From NCBI GenBank assembly GCA_021776025.1, contig JAJFGR010000012.1:186001-250000 (forward strand): DNA of 64,000 bases, given 5' to 3'. Shown one piece after another: positions 56,794 to 61,149 of the stretch. This stretch comes from Alphaproteobacteria bacterium (lineage in GTDB: Bacteria > Pseudomonadota > Alphaproteobacteria > Micavibrionales > Micavibrionaceae). Within the stretch, counting starts at the first letter, position 1, and every line of letters starts with the position of its first letter. The notes beneath the pieces are model-generated. The model was given only the letters and a program-made list of their open reading frames with translations. It had not been told where the DNA came from and did not search any database. The translations under genes were made by a program, and so were the position numbers.

Positions 56794-58218
56794 ATGAATT
56801 TTTCTAAACTCGCCTCCCTCTTTACAATATTTACATTTTTGAGCTTTTCAGCTTTCATACCCGACGCTTTTGCAATGAGCGCTGCGGAAAACGTTACAGA
56901 AAAACTCCCTATTCCACCGCTGCATCCCGGGGCGCTGTTTTGTATTGCGGTATTTGTGATTGCTTATTTCTTTGTGTTGATCGAGGAAAAGACGCATTTG
57001 AGCAAATCCAAACCAGTGATGGTTGGTGCGGCGGTGATTTGGATAACAATTGCTTTTATCGCGGGCGATTACGGGTATAGCCACGACGACATCCACACGG
57101 CTGTGTTTCATGGGTTAGAGGAATATGCGGCGCTGCTGCTCTTCCTGCTGGCGGCGATGACCTATATCACGACGATGGAAGACAGGAATGTGTTTGAGGT
57201 GCTGCGGGCGCGGCTTGTTGAAGCGGGCATGAATATGCGACAGCTGTTCTGGGCCACGGGAATTATCGCGTTTTTCCTTTCACCCATGGCGGATAATTTG
57301 ACAACGGCGCTGGTCATGGGCGCGGTGATTATGTCGGTCGGCAAGCATGATCCGAAATTTGTGGCGCTGGCGTGCGTGAATGTGGTGGCGGCGGCGAATG
57401 CCGGCGGGGCGTTTTCGCCCTTTGGGGATATTACGACATTGATGGTCTGGCAGGCGAACAAGGTTGAGTTTTTTGAATTTTTTGCCCTGTTTATTCCTTC
57501 GGCCGTGAACTTTTTGATTCCAGCTGTGATTATGAGTTTCTTTGTCCCGAAAGATTTACCGGATCCTTTATCTGAAGAAATAAAATTAAAACGCGGCGCC
57601 AAGCGTGTGATTATGTTTGGCATTTTGACGATTGCGACGGCCGTGAGCTGTGAGCAGTTTCTGGGACTGCCGCCATTTTTGGGGATGATGGCGGGGCTAT
57701 CAGCCTTGATGATTTTGTCCTATTTCCTTCGCATGACCGGACAAGGTAAGACTGAAGATAATTTCAACGCCCTACAACTGGTTAAACGGGCAGAGTGGGA
57801 TACATTGTTGTTCTTCTATGGCGTGATTTTCTGTGTGGGCGGTTTGAGCTTCTTGGGTTACATGGAGCTGGCCTCGATGACCATGTATGAAGGGTACGGC
57901 GCGAGTGTAACCAATGTCGCGCTAGGGGTTGCGTCTGCGGTCGTTGATAACATCCCTGTGATGTTTGCGGTGCTGACCATGGATCCGACGATGGATCATT
58001 TCCAATGGCTGCTTATTACTTTGACCACCGGGGTTGGCGGGACGATGCTGTCGATCGGTTCGGCGGCCGGTGTAGCGTTGATGGGATCGGCGCATGGAAA
58101 ATATACGTTCATGAGCCATTTAAAATGGACGCCTATTCTTGCCATTGGTTACGCCGCGGCGATCTGGGCACATTTCCTTGTGAATGGGCATTTAATGGGT
58201 GTGGGGCTGACGCATTAA
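56794..58218 (+). CDS. nhaD: Na+/H+ antiporter NhaD
   Basis: A 474-residue membrane antiporter of the NhaD/ion-transporter superfamily. After a hydrophobic, probably cleaved N-terminus there are roughly 12 membrane segments. SPMADNLTTALVMGAVIMSVG and NAGGAFSPFGDITTLMVWQ are the two conserved ion-binding segments of the family. An AAACAAGGATAAACA leader precedes the ATG. The 3' end overlaps the broken holin gene on the other strand by 4 bases. Confidence 0.92.
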   Translation: MNFSKLASLFTIFTFLSFSAFIPDAFAMSAAENVTEKLPIPPLHPGALFCIAVFVIAYFFVLIEEKTHLSKSKPVMVGAAVIWITIAFIAGDYGYSHDDIHTAVFHGLEEYAALLLFLLAAMTYITTMEDRNVFEVLRARLVEAGMNMRQLFWATGIIAFFLSPMADNLTTALVMGAVIMSVGKHDPKFVALACVNVVAAANAGGAFSPFGDITTLMVWQANKVEFFEFFALFIPSAVNFLIPAVIMSFFVPKDLPDPLSEEIKLKRGAKRVIMFGILTIATAVSCEQFLGLPPFLGMMAGLSALMILSYFLRMTGQGKTEDNFNALQLVKRAEWDTLLFFYGVIFCVGGLSFLGYMELASMTMYEGYGASVTNVALGVASAVVDNIPVMFAVLTMDPTMDHFQWLLITLTTGVGGTMLSIGSAAGVALMGSAHGKYTFMSHLKWTPILAIGYAAAIWAHFLVNGHLMGVGLTH

Positions 58219-58604
58219 GGTTTGTTCCAGAATATAGTTTCCGGCAGCGGCAAAAGCTTTTTATCGTCGCTACGACGGTAAACGTAAACCCCTAGGACAG
58301 ACAATCCGACAGCCCAGATTGCGCTGAGGTTTACCATCGCGTTTAATATATATTCGGTACGTTGCGCATCGAATATTACGATGTAGGCGATAGCTAGCAT
58401 TTGAGCTGCCCATGTTATTGCCATCAAATAGCCAAAAGTTGGGCGCATCCGGCGGACATAGAGGTCATCAGACCCAATTTCGGCGCGCAAAGATTTGTTA
58501 ATTTCTTCAAATGCTGCGCGCGTTTCCTCTCATTTCAGTTCGGCGAGATGCTCGATATGGGCGATAGCGACCTTGCAGGCGTCATGTGATGCGATTACAG
58601 GCAT
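58215..58604 (-). pseudogene. Broken 3TM holin gene (phage/GTA type)
   Basis: The - strand frame from ATG 58604 reads MPVIASHDACKVAIAHIEHL and then hits an in-frame TGA at 58532-58530. The same frame continues after the stop with EETRAAFEEINKSLRAEIG, the RRMRPTFGYLMAITWAAQM start of the membrane part, three hydrophobic segments and the closing VYVYRRSDDKK. This layout matches the 3TM holin family found in gene-transfer agents and prophages. Downstream of the stop, only TTG (58490) is available as a start. The stop could also mean a shortened functional product. The 3' end overlaps nhaD by 4 bases. Confidence 0.65.
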
Positions 58605-58617
58605 CGTGCAAAGTGCC

Positions 58618-58797
58618 TCACCTAGAGGGTAACACCTTTGAGTTACCCCTATATGGGTACACCGATAAGTTACACGCCTGTGTAATTTTGAATTGGCCAA
58701 AGAAGTTACTCATAAGAGTACACAAAGGTGTATCCCCGCATTCGAACTGCTTGATGAAGGCCTGATCTATTGTCGTAGACATAGGCATATACCTCAT
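58618..58797 (-). pseudogene. Remnant of the 5' end of a phage capsid gene
   Basis: The - strand frame starts MRYMPMSTTIDQAFIKQFE; MSTTIDQAFxKQFE is the usual beginning of a podovirus-like major capsid protein. After about 16 matching residues (58788-58741) the similarity ends abruptly and the frame runs through a hairpin array to a TGA at 58618. This looks like a deletion junction that removed the rest of the capsid gene and the genes between it and the holin. Recognition rests on memory of the capsid N-terminus and is moderately sure. Confidence 0.5.
58627..58735. repeat. Array of small covarying hairpins
   Basis: Consecutive stem-loops share a frame of the form GTTAC-x-C ... G-x'-GTA with compensating changes: GTTACCC-ctatat-GGGTAC, GTTACAC-gcct-GTGTAA, GTTACTC-ataa-GAGTAC, and a last GTACAC-aaag-GTGTA. 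The first unit also pairs with GGGTAAC at 58627-58633. The pattern lies exactly where phage capsid and holin remnants meet. Confidence 0.75.
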
Positions 58798-59120
58798 ATT
58801 TAGATGTTAAAAGAAAGGGGTAGAGGCCCGGCCCTCAGGTGGTTTTCGCCCTTAATGATAAAAACGGCCGTATGTCGGGGAATCGCAGACCAGCGCCTTT
58901 AAAGATAAAGCTTCGGTTATCTGCGTATTCAAAAAGATTTCGGGCGTTGTTAAGCCTAAAATAGGAATTAATTCTTATTTTATCAAGCGAAAACTTGGAT
59001 AAAGTTGCATTTTTTGCGATGCACCCTTACAATTGCCATAATTTTGTGGATACTGTGTCTTGTATAAATTTGAAAAAAACTGACAATAGCGGTATGGTTA
59101 TTGGAAACAGGGACCAAAAA
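58798..59120. other. Gap without a recognised gene
   Basis: This stretch of about 320 bases holds no convincing gene. It separates the capsid remnant from the PilZ gene and is AT-rich toward the right. A longer in-frame ATG at 58995 would extend the PilZ protein by 42 residues with no domain, and is not preferred. Confidence 0.5.
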
Positions 59121-59513
59121 ATGTTTGGACGATTATTTTCTTCATTACAAGCTGACAACAGCAACGAGCCAGAAACGGCTCGGCGCAGGTATGCGCGGCG
59201 TGATTGTGACCGCTGTGTAACCGTTATTAACGGCAAAACTTATCCGGTTGAGAACTGGTCACTTGGCGGCGTATTGCTCAGCGCTGATGAGCGTGAATTT
59301 GCCAACGAAGATGAGATGAACATCACACTCAAATTTAAACTGCGTGATGATATCGTTGATGTTCCGCATGCGGCGCGCGTTATTCGCAAAGGTCGCAACA
59401 AAATAGCTTTTGAGTTTAAACCTCTCACACAGCAGATTCGTAGCAACTTTCAAAATGTAGTTGATGATTATGTTGCTTCACAGTTTGCGGCATCACAGAG
59501 TCAGCTTCATTAA
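59121..59513 (+). CDS. PilZ-domain protein
   Basis: A 130-residue protein built around a PilZ domain, which binds cyclic di-GMP. RRRYARRDCDR (R-x-x-x-R) and VENWSLGGVLLS (the [DN]-x-S-x-x-G motif, with N in place of D) are the two ligand-contacting elements. The start at 59121 is chosen because an AGGGA site lies 7 bases upstream. It probably controls motility or adhesion in response to c-di-GMP; that role is inference. It is transcribed against the phage-like genes around it, and its own terminator follows. Confidence 0.85.
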   Translation: MFGRLFSSLQADNSNEPETARRRYARRDCDRCVTVINGKTYPVENWSLGGVLLSADEREFANEDEMNITLKFKLRDDIVDVPHAARVIRKGRNKIAFEFKPLTQQIRSNFQNVVDDYVASQFAASQSQLH

Positions 59514-59577: not shown

Positions 59578-60147
59578 TTACTGTCCGTAAACTTTCTCAA
59601 AACCCTCGGTAACCTTAGACACAAATGCTGGGCCTTTATCGCGCCAATAGCGCGGATCACGCATCATGGATTTGAGGTCTTGCTCGTTTACGCTAGAGGG
59701 ATTGTCGGCTTTCTTACGAAGGCCCGGCTCATCCGATTGCATCATTTTGAAGAGCGCGAGCACACCTTCATGTGAGCTGGAAAGATTTTCAAGAACATCC
59801 GCGGGCAAGTTACGCTGACCAAAGGCTAAAAGCTGGCGAGAAACTTCTTTCCATTTATCCGGACCACCGAAATGCTCAACGAGTTTTTCAACTTCGCGGT
59901 CAGCACTAAAATCTCCGGCCGCCTGTGCAACCATCGGCACCATTTTTTCAGCCGCTAGATCATACACTTCCTGCACCTGATCCTGAGTCATGCCTTTGGC
60001 GTGTAGGCGCTGGTTAATATCTGCATCCGGTTCAAAAAGGCCGTGGTCACAATTCACGCAATATTCATCGGGGGTTTTGTTCCTTTTTTTAGATAAATCT
60101 GTTCTCTTTATGTTCTCATTTGTGGTGTATATTTTAGATAGAGTCAA
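59578..60147 (-). CDS. Phage scaffold-like (capsid assembly) protein
   Basis: The 189-residue protein ends in LKSMMRDPRYWRDKGPAFVS and KVTEGFEKVYGQ, which resembles the C-terminus of podovirus capsid-assembly (scaffold) proteins, with a preceding helical, acidic stretch. The N-terminus has YCVNCDHGLFEPDADINQRL, a Cys-x-x-Cys piece also seen in such proteins. In T7-like phages scaffold and capsid genes are adjacent; here the capsid remnant lies 790 bases downstream on the same strand, with the PilZ gene inserted between. The open frame is intact. A cellular protein with a similar tail is the alternative. Confidence 0.55.
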   Translation of the reverse strand: MTLSKIYTTNENIKRTDLSKKRNKTPDEYCVNCDHGLFEPDADINQRLHAKGMTQDQVQEVYDLAAEKMVPMVAQAAGDFSADREVEKLVEHFGGPDKWKEVSRQLLAFGQRNLPADVLENLSSSHEGVLALFKMMQSDEPGLRKKADNPSSVNEQDLKSMMRDPRYWRDKGPAFVSKVTEGFEKVYGQ

Positions 60148-60189
60148 GAAGAAAATAAGATTTTATTCCTATTTTTTTCTCTTTATTTA

Positions 60190-60215
60190 TGTGCGCACAA
60201 ATGGGACTATCGTCC
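60190..60215. promoter_or_regulatory. Palindromes at the start of the HTH-PyrE gene
   Basis: TGTGCGCACA (60190-60199) is a perfect palindrome, and GGAC-tatc-GTCC (60204-60215) ends one base before the ATG. There is no ribosome binding site, so translation may be leaderless or weak. The position suits an autoregulatory operator; this is inference. Confidence 0.4.
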
Positions 60216-60216
60216 T

Positions 60217-61149
60217 ATGTTGACACATGAGAGAATTTGGTTAGCCATCGACCGCCTTGCAAAAGCTTTTGGCTACTCCCCATCCGGCCTTGCCAAACAA
60301 GCAGGTCTGGATCCTACATCCTTTAATAAAAGCAAACGGCTTAGCCCCGATGGAAAACCGCGATGGCCATCGACAGAGAGCATTGCGAAAATACTGGCCG
60401 TGACGGATTCAACGATGCGGGAATTTATTAGCCTTATTGATGATGAGACAGACCGCCGGAGGCAGATTCTGACCATGGACAAAGCCGGGATAGCAAGCAC
60501 AACAGCGCAAATTCTACTTGATACTGAGTCCGTGCTATTTAACAGCCGCGAACCGTTCACTTTAAAATCAGGTCGCCAAAGCCCTGTCTATATAGATTGC
60601 CGCCGGCTGATTTCATTTCCGAAAGAACGCAACTTTCTGATGGACGCCGCGGCGCAAATGATCACATCCGAAATCGGTGCAGAGAATATTGATATTGTGG
60701 CTGGCGGAGAAACAGCCGGCATTCCGTATGGAGCTTTCGTTGCTGAGCGCCTTGAAAAATCAATGATTTATGTTCGCAAGGAACCGAAAGGTTATGGTCG
60801 CACGGCGCAAATTGAAGGGCACCTCCCAGAAAGCGGCACACCGAAAGCCATTCTGGTTGAAGATCTACAAACAGATGGCGGCAGCAAAAAGATTTTCATC
60901 GATGCGATGCGTGAAGCGGGGCTTAGCGTTGAGCATACCTTTGTCGTGTTCCACTACGGCATATTTCCCCGCAGCACTCAAAACATGGAAGAGATGGGGG
61001 TTACGCTGCATGCTTTGGCAACCTGGTGGGACGTTTTGGCGCTGACCAAAGAACAAAAATATTTTGATGAAGAAACGTTACTTTCCGTTGAATCGTTCCT
61101 GAATGATCCCGACAGTTGGGCTCCATCTAATCAAGAGGGTGCAGCATGA
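60217..61149 (+). CDS. pyrE: Helix-turn-helix domain fused to orotate phosphoribosyltransferase
   Basis: The 310-residue protein joins two parts. Residues 1-80 (MLTHERIWLAIDRLAKAFGY onward, with SPSGLAKQAGLDPTSFNKSK and RWPSTESIAKIL) match the DNA-binding N-terminus of S24-family, LexA-like repressors. Residues from about 88 on match PyrE, which makes orotidine 5'-phosphate: AQILLDTESVLFNSREPFTLKSGRQSP near the start and the PRPP site AILVEDLQTDGGSK. An internal ATG at 60475 with GGAGG 12 bases upstream could also give PyrE alone. It overlaps nadK by 4 bases. The frame is continuous, with no sign of error. The fusion suggests a pyrimidine-sensing regulator, which is inference. Confidence 0.85.
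   Translation: MLTHERIWLAIDRLAKAFGYSPSGLAKQAGLDPTSFNKSKRLSPDGKPRWPSTESIAKILAVTDSTMREFISLIDDETDRRRQILTMDKAGIASTTAQILLDTESVLFNSREPFTLKSGRQSPVYIDCRRLISFPKERNFLMDAAAQMITSEIGAENIDIVAGGETAGIPYGAFVAERLEKSMIYVRKEPKGYGRTAQIEGHLPESGTPKAILVEDLQTDGGSKKIFIDAMREAGLSVEHTFVVFHYGIFPRSTQNMEEMGVTLHALATWWDVLALTKEQKYFDEETLLSVESFLNDPDSWAPSNQEGAA

Follow-up and report, generated by a model that had tools for sequence, protein, structure and literature searches.

Enzymes fused to helix-turn-helix (HTH) DNA-binding domains are already known. In HTH-phosphoribosyltransferase regulators, such as PurR of B. subtilis and GfcR of haloarchaea, a DNA-binding domain is followed by a phosphoribosyltransferase (PRT) domain, and these proteins are regulators with PRT folds rather than the cell's orotate phosphoribosyltransferase (OPRT, or PyrE). 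The trigger enzymes PutA, BirA and NadR also carry a fused DNA-binding domain and are associated with autoregulation.

In the 64-kb stretch of alphaproteobacterial DNA analysed here (the window), a single gene joins an HTH to PyrE. Like S24-family repressors (LexA, lambda/434 CI type), the fusion has an N-terminal Cro/CI-type HTH and palindromes in its own promoter region, with the phage-like genes running divergently; unlike them, it has no S24 domain or Ser-Lys pair and carries PyrE instead. As in PurR and GfcR, a DNA-binding domain precedes a PRT domain, but here the PRT is the genome's only convincing OPRT and scores above the NF001729 cut-off. As in PutA, BirA and NadR, a metabolic enzyme and a DNA-binding domain share one chain, with autoregulation proposed here from the sequence, but the enzyme is a different one and its likely target includes a phage-like cluster. 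A CI/LexA-type regulator that has swapped S24 for the cell's PyrE beside a phage-like cluster was not found described, and no HTH-PyrE fusion was reported among the literature matches listed (titles and abstract beginnings of open-licence papers).

We propose that the fusion is probably a bifunctional protein, being both the sole PyrE of the cell and a DNA-binding autoregulator and repressor of the phage-like cluster. The loci would then document, step by step, how a regulator of phage type shed its S24 protease and was joined to an enzyme of core metabolism, its sites being conserved before and after the fusion.

Domain architecture and probable enzyme role of the fusion

The original prediction held that one uninterrupted frame joins an HTH to a complete PyrE, and the open frame and its NF001729 match bear this out. 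The features are as follows:

60217-61149, plus strand: HTH-PyrE fusion gene, 310 aa, ATG start, uninterrupted frame
60217-60444, plus strand: HTH domain, residues 1-76, of the Cro/CI type that HTH-S24 regulators carry
60445-60492, plus strand: linker, residues 77-92, the least conserved part (major-residue frequency 0.37, no invariant columns)
60475-60477, plus strand: internal ATG (Met87), the start put forward by the original prediction, not conserved
60493-61146, plus strand: orotate phosphoribosyltransferase (PyrE) domain, the only convincing PyrE of the genome
61146-61904, plus strand: NAD kinase (nadK), next gene of the operon, with a 4-base overlap with the fusion gene

The fusion protein (P0001) gives its own Pfam HTH matches below cut-off (Xre-like-HTH, E 0.014; HTH_36, E 0.022). 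Its N-terminus shares 45-89% identity with the corresponding part of HTH-S24 proteins and of further fusions, and an AlphaFold2 model of the protein (mean pLDDT 86.8) places confident N-domain helices at residues 4-17, 22-28, 33-38, 53-62 and 67-86, so that identity and predicted fold together assign the HTH to the S24-regulator family. Behind the same HTH, Peptidase_S24 was matched in all four unfused relatives tested (E 4e-26 to 2e-23). The Pfam search found no S24 match in P0001, which also lacks the Ser-Lys pair, and PyrE stands in the place of S24; the earlier description of an S24-family HTH without its peptidase thus holds.

The second domain is an OPRT by family match and by fold. Residues 87-306 match NCBIfam NF001729 with 312 bits against a cut-off of 245, the fusion scores 101.7 bits against TIGR00336 (just under the cut-off of 106.8), the PyrE part matches PDB 4ohc (E 2.4e-72), and a Foldseek comparison of the fusion model with 4ohc gives a TM-score of 0.90 by target length. 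Both the PRPP loop (VEDLQTDGGSK) and the flexible-loop lysines (RKEPKGYGR) are kept in the window. Matches to the PurR model TIGR01743 and to the OPRT-like family NF002620 are weak and far under their cut-offs. In the genome that carries the window (G000), the fusion is the sole PyrE-like match above 26 bits, and PyrB and PyrF are encoded. The fusion is thus probably the cell's OMP-forming enzyme.

Across 24 of the 26 fused sequences (all but L014 and L049), the major-residue frequency is 0.81 in the HTH and 0.78 in PyrE, against 0.37 in the linker, and 34 of the 76 HTH columns are invariant. Among ten pairs, dN/dS of the HTH is approximately 0.01-0.06 in seven and dS is saturated in the other three (one PyrE pair was not computable). 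These substitution patterns indicate that the HTH of the fusion is under purifying selection.

As a separate observation, the PRPP loop is changed from TDGGS to NFGHS, NHGSS or NYGSS in four loci (L014, L049, L062 and L067). These are placed apart in the PyrE tree, and NadK groups L014, L049 and L067 with the fusions; their PyrE part may have evolved fast or been replaced. We considered whether the altered loop marks a loss of OPRT activity in L014, L049 and L067 and set this aside, because the solved structure of a Burkholderia OPRT likewise has a sequence other than TDGGS there.

Distribution and origin of the fusion

The original prediction suggested a search for other fusions, and at least 26 distinct fused sequences, including one from a viral contig, were found among 64 rows after de-duplication by PyrE sequence (loci from genome contigs are the best 80 of 571 relatives, with viral contigs added). 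This recurrence rules out a sequencing or assembly error as the source of the fusion. The fused loci include Micavibrio sp. and alphaproteobacterial MAGs, and a full-length fusion was matched in 14 of 57 genomes searched (that of the window included), all within one family of 36 genomes. Two IMG/VR contigs, L031 and L032, carry the HTH-PyrE fusion at one end, with L032 continuing into nadK, and so the cluster has been binned as a virus in a public collection.

In the PyrE tree (64 rows) 24 fused sequences form a fused-only clade with 98/99 support that excludes L014 and L049. The NadK tree has 59 rows, of which 24 are fused, L014 and L049 among them; all of these lie in one 27-row clade (100/100), which also holds the HTH-only locus L067 and the S24-intact loci L066 and L084. 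The simpler reading of both trees would be one fusion origin, with later PyrE divergence or replacement in L014 and L049 and a re-split in L067. Two or more independent fusions, as the position of L014 and L049 in the PyrE tree could imply, were rejected since the NadK tree groups all 24 of its fused rows, and we do not claim convergence. L066 and L084 have intact HTH-S24 loci, yet their NadK lies inside the fused clade, which suggests recombination at the locus.

The unfused relatives usually have the gene order HTH-S24, pyrE, nadK, often with purC on the other strand, and some (e.g. L052-L054, L076, L088) have an extra reading frame between HTH-S24 and pyrE. Several states of the S24 domain are found. 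Specifically, among 25 de-duplicated HTH-S24 loci that also hold pyrE, the Ser/Lys pair is 1) intact in 14; and 2) replaced at one or both positions in 11 (L021, L051-L054, L056, L057, L060, L061, L063 and L072). Elsewhere S24 is truncated (L059 and L065) or absent, leaving a lone HTH of 72-83 codons (L017, L050, L062, L067 and L071). HTH stop and pyrE start share one base in L017, and in L067 they adjoin or overlap. In the more distant alphaproteobacterial HTH-S24 proteins aligned the pair is also mostly intact, the exceptions being L082, L091-L093 and L099-L101. The fusion has the appearance of a final step in the decay of an adjacent HTH-S24 regulator.

One genome, G009, has no portal gene of the phage-like cluster and keeps an HTH-only gene, ending after 76 codons, together with one of the operator sites described below (O2), which shows that the HTH can outlive the cluster. 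Decay of the HTH as a consequence of cluster loss in G009 was considered and rejected, because HTH-only genes of 72-83 codons also adjoin intact-looking clusters and O2 is kept in G009.

The T7-like head-tail cluster and its relics

In most fused loci and many unfused ones, the genes that lie upstream of the HTH and diverge from it comprise at most three small ones without a Pfam match and a portal gene. The full cluster in G006 (L113) encodes a portal (PF12236, E 2.5e-146), a T7 capsid assembly protein (PF05396), a capsid (PF19821), a tail protein (phrog_376), a tailspike-like protein, a terminase (phrog_38), a cell-wall hydrolase (PF07486) and a GTA_holin_3TM holin (PF11351), along with a T7 gp14-like match under cut-off. 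Of 20 proteins from L113, L032 and L116 that were scanned, not one matched an integrase or polymerase; one of the 20 is a flanking host transporter, and some small genes lay outside the scan. Gene order is kept in L116, L117, L118 and L120, and L115 and L119 hold the portal-scaffold end only, beside the HTH.

A portal is present in 41 of the 57 genomes (weakly in four) and absent from that of the window. HTH and strong portal occur together in 36 of these genomes, HTH alone in four (G000, G009, G013 and G046, the last with a weak portal), strong portal alone in one (G032) and neither in 16, and Fisher tests of this co-occurrence ignore phylogeny. A class-wide sample of 240 genomes includes 31 with a strong portal (E < 1e-100, a cut-off chosen by this analysis); the HTH lies divergent within 8 kb of 27 of these, lies elsewhere in two and has no match in two. 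Beside weaker portals (to 1e-40) the HTH is found in only 2 of 22 cases, giving 29 of 53 overall at the 1e-40 cut-off, and 40 of 69 class-level genomes with the HTH have no strong portal match. The HTH family is thus broader than the cluster, and other portals lack the HTH.

In 28 Micavibrio-like loci, portal distances correlate with NadK distances (Spearman 0.81; none of 999 permutations as high). Portal dN/dS is about 0.02-0.11 in seven pairs and is low in three close pairs (0.03/0.90, 0.03/0.57 and 0.04/1.23). On this correlation and these low ratios the cluster looks domesticated, in the manner of a gene transfer agent (GTA), but is of T7 type. As in the alphaproteobacterial GTAs of the RcGTA and Bartonella types, its head-tail and lysis genes appear to be under purifying selection and to track host phylogeny, no integrase or replication gene was recognised among the cluster proteins scanned, and there is a GTA_holin_3TM match. 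Unlike those GTAs, it has a T7/podovirus-type portal and scaffold, and an HTH-S24 regulator and a LexA box adjoin it.

A 2022 classification proposes three GTA families, and its one match to 'podovir' lies in the reference list; the nearest title among the literature matches listed is that of a roseobacter phage with podovirus and GTA features (PMC4961962). No report of a T7-type GTA in the Micavibrio-like group was among the literature matches listed, which are open-licence papers. The locus also points to a T7-type cluster of domesticated appearance that comes with an HTH-S24 regulator and, in many cases, a LexA box, and for which we found no description. The T7/podovirus-type head-tail-lysis cluster with a divergent HTH-S24 gene recurs across Alphaproteobacteria, in genomes from several families (L113 3242-18161, L114, L116-L118 and L120), and its portal end only is seen in Caenispirillum bisanense (L104) and Rhodovibrio sodomensis (L107). 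As a conserved cluster it is a candidate gene transfer agent of a kind not described before.

A gene for a PilZ domain, of the c-di-GMP receptor type, lies inside the cluster on the opposite strand (window 59118-59513, L113 14399-14794, L114 13731-14114). No PilZ match was found in the more distant clusters L117-L120.

In the window itself the cluster has decayed to the following:

56794-58218, plus strand: nhaD, far-side flank of the cluster in the window and in G016 (L114)
58221-58559, minus strand: relic of a GTA_holin_3TM-type holin, residues 60-172
58536-58610, minus strand: relic of a small cluster gene, g101, residues 43-67
58741-58782, minus strand: relic of the capsid gene, residues 1-14 of 278
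59118-59513, plus strand: PilZ-domain gene, full length, in the former cluster (the open reading frame as listed begins at 58995)
59578-60099, minus strand: relic of the T7-type capsid assembly (scaffold) gene, residues 37-214 of 216

The holin, g101, capsid, PilZ and scaffold remains keep their original order in the interval from nhaD to the fusion. The survivors in the window are the fusion, PilZ, three candidate operators (O1, O2 and O3) and a LexA box. With the cluster gone in this genome, the known candidate targets that would be left are the fusion's own operon and PilZ.

Candidate operators and the proposed regulation

The candidate sites in the window are:

58961-58978, unstranded: predicted operator O3 (18.9 bits), in the gap that separates the capsid relic from PilZ, on the upstream side of PilZ
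60101-60115, unstranded: GTTC-N7-GTTC, the alphaproteobacterial LexA-box consensus
60155-60172, unstranded: predicted operator O1 (AAGA-N6-TCCT core at 60157-60170)
60201-60218, unstranded: predicted operator O2 (GGGA-N6-TCCT core at 60203-60216), which abuts and overlaps the start codon

O1 and O2 are two 14-bp palindromes of the form RRGA-N6-TCCY upstream of the HTH, of which 0.026 are expected per 250 bp. The motif was first spotted by eye in the same loci where it was later counted, and palindromes and LexA boxes were first counted in a redundant set of 109 regions; the class counts given here are from de-duplicated loci and, for O1 and O2, use a matrix trained on such sites, with O3 serving as the out-of-sample test. 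At least one palindrome lies upstream in 26 of 26 fused, 14 of 14 S24-intact, 10 of 11 S24-degenerate and 7 of 7 HTH-only loci. Two are present in 25 of the 26 fused loci, spaced 36 bp apart in 24 of these 25 and 46 bp apart in the window, where a 10-bp insertion of about one helical turn separates them; the unfused L070 also has 46 bp. Another palindrome, TGTGCGCACA at 60190-60199, was rejected as an operator, being not conserved in 11 relatives aligned, and a definite promoter assignment in the intergenic region was abandoned since no hexamer pair was convincing by eye.

In most loci a LexA box precedes O1: such a box lies upstream in 22 of the 26 fused loci and in 24 of the 32 unfused, against an expectation of 0.006 per 250 bp, and a LexA gene is present in the genome of the window. 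Two sources give GTTC-N7-GTTC as the alphaproteobacterial LexA box (PMC3091678, PMC12700426). A LexA-type box (GTTC/GAAC-N7) also precedes the HTH in 8 of 10 loci that have a portal but no pyrE within the sequence covered (L080-L082, L085-L087, L090, L098, L104 and L107).

For O3, the entire window was scanned with a matrix that had been built solely from sites preceding the HTH. The scan gave three matches of at least 9 bits (O1, O2 and O3), where 2.4 are expected at that cut-off, and O3 itself reaches 18.9 bits, where random sequence yields 0.07 matches of at least 16 bits per 64 kb. The capsid gene and PilZ share the gap that holds O3 in the Micavibrio relatives. Of 24 stretches examined, 21 have both capsid and PilZ, and a site of at least 11 bits (a cut-off of our choosing; random expectation 0.8 per 64 kb) lies in the capsid-PilZ gap of 20 (10 of 10 fused, 10 of 11 unfused), the one exception at this cut-off being L141. 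L128 and L139, in which neither capsid nor PilZ was matched, have no site of at least 11 bits, and L123 has one further site match. The presence of O3 in 20 of 21 gaps suggests that the phage-like cluster holds a second control point, marked by the motif of the HTH, whether the locus is fused or not. A large regulon in the window's genome was rejected: the loose motif is not enriched genome-wide (20 sites against 40 in a reversed control), and the strict motif occurs once, as in the control.

The sequences show the architecture of the fusion and its origin, the conservation of the HTH, the operator footprints, the linkage to the cluster and the relics, and we infer DNA binding, repression rather than activation, and dimerisation through PyrE. 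The ancestor would have been a CI/LexA-type HTH-S24 regulator between a divergent T7-like head-tail cluster and pyrE-nadK, whose S24 domain decayed and was then lost, the HTH becoming joined to PyrE. PyrE is a dimer in known structures. It would replace S24 as the dimerisation module, presenting two HTHs to the palindromes. By binding O1 and O2 the fusion would repress the pyrE-nadK operon to which it belongs and probably also the phage-like cluster that diverges from it, and by binding O3 it would act on the capsid/PilZ region, with LexA supplying DNA damage as a second input. That the enzyme also binds DNA, as originally predicted, is likely given an HTH under purifying selection and conserved palindromic sites, and the fusion reading predicts precise, testable DNA sites and ligands. 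The source of the HTH in a neighbouring HTH-S24 gene, its probable T7-like target, the operators and the LexA box go beyond the original prediction.

Two forms of this explanation differ in what PyrE contributes. In one the repressor does not sense metabolites, and PyrE would give only dimerisation and a constant protein level. The HTH and its sites stayed conserved after the S24 catalytic pair was lost and in the HTH-only state, so that no sensor domain seems required, and the linker is unconserved; against this, the 24-row PyrE clade (98/99) is fused-only, and the fusion has thus been kept across deep divergence. We give this form nearly an even chance. In the other, occupancy by PRPP, orotate or OMP would shift the geometry of the HTH pair, tuning operon and cluster to the pyrimidine state. 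A ligand-binding enzyme has indeed taken the place of the ancestral S24 domain, HTH-phosphoribosyltransferase regulators are known, and the PyrE part has the weak TIGR01743 and NF002620 matches far under cut-off, but no conserved linker is present, and we consider gating by metabolites, raised in the original prediction as a report on pyrimidine or PRPP state, possible and rather doubtful. About as doubtful is a wider proposal in which a LexA-linked, T7-type, GTA-like element is widespread in Alphaproteobacteria, and the swap of S24 for PyrE in the SOS-type repressor of one Micavibrio lineage would let pyrimidine or PRPP state gate the making of phage-like particles.

Other readings would deny the HTH of the fusion this role. 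O1-O3 might be bound by another protein, the HTH acting elsewhere, which could account for a strict core occurring at nine sites in G007 and for a core repeated at 10 other places in G015, but the sites adjoin the HTH gene and lie in a cluster that co-occurs with the HTH, making this improbable. The internal start at 60475 might yield PyrE alone, with the long frame not the main product. The original prediction was right that an ATG is present there, and a GGAGG lies 12 nt upstream; conservation of this start was nevertheless rejected, as only 7 of the 26 fused sequences have an ATG at residues 82-91, and a short PyrE as the main product is very improbable. We give least credence to the HTH being a passive leftover, with PyrE alone mattering. 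Deletion of the window's phage-like cluster, the main presumed target, would favour it, but the HTH is conserved like PyrE and has low dN/dS, at least one site is kept in 26 of 26 fused loci, and the insertion between O1 and O2 adds about one helical turn.

The extra cores in G015 (L159-L170) are spelled as in its own O3. They apparently lie within a repeated palindrome of approximately 30 bp that looks like a TTGACA/TATAAT promoter whose two hexamers enclose the core, and they could represent either a regulon expansion or a separate repeat.
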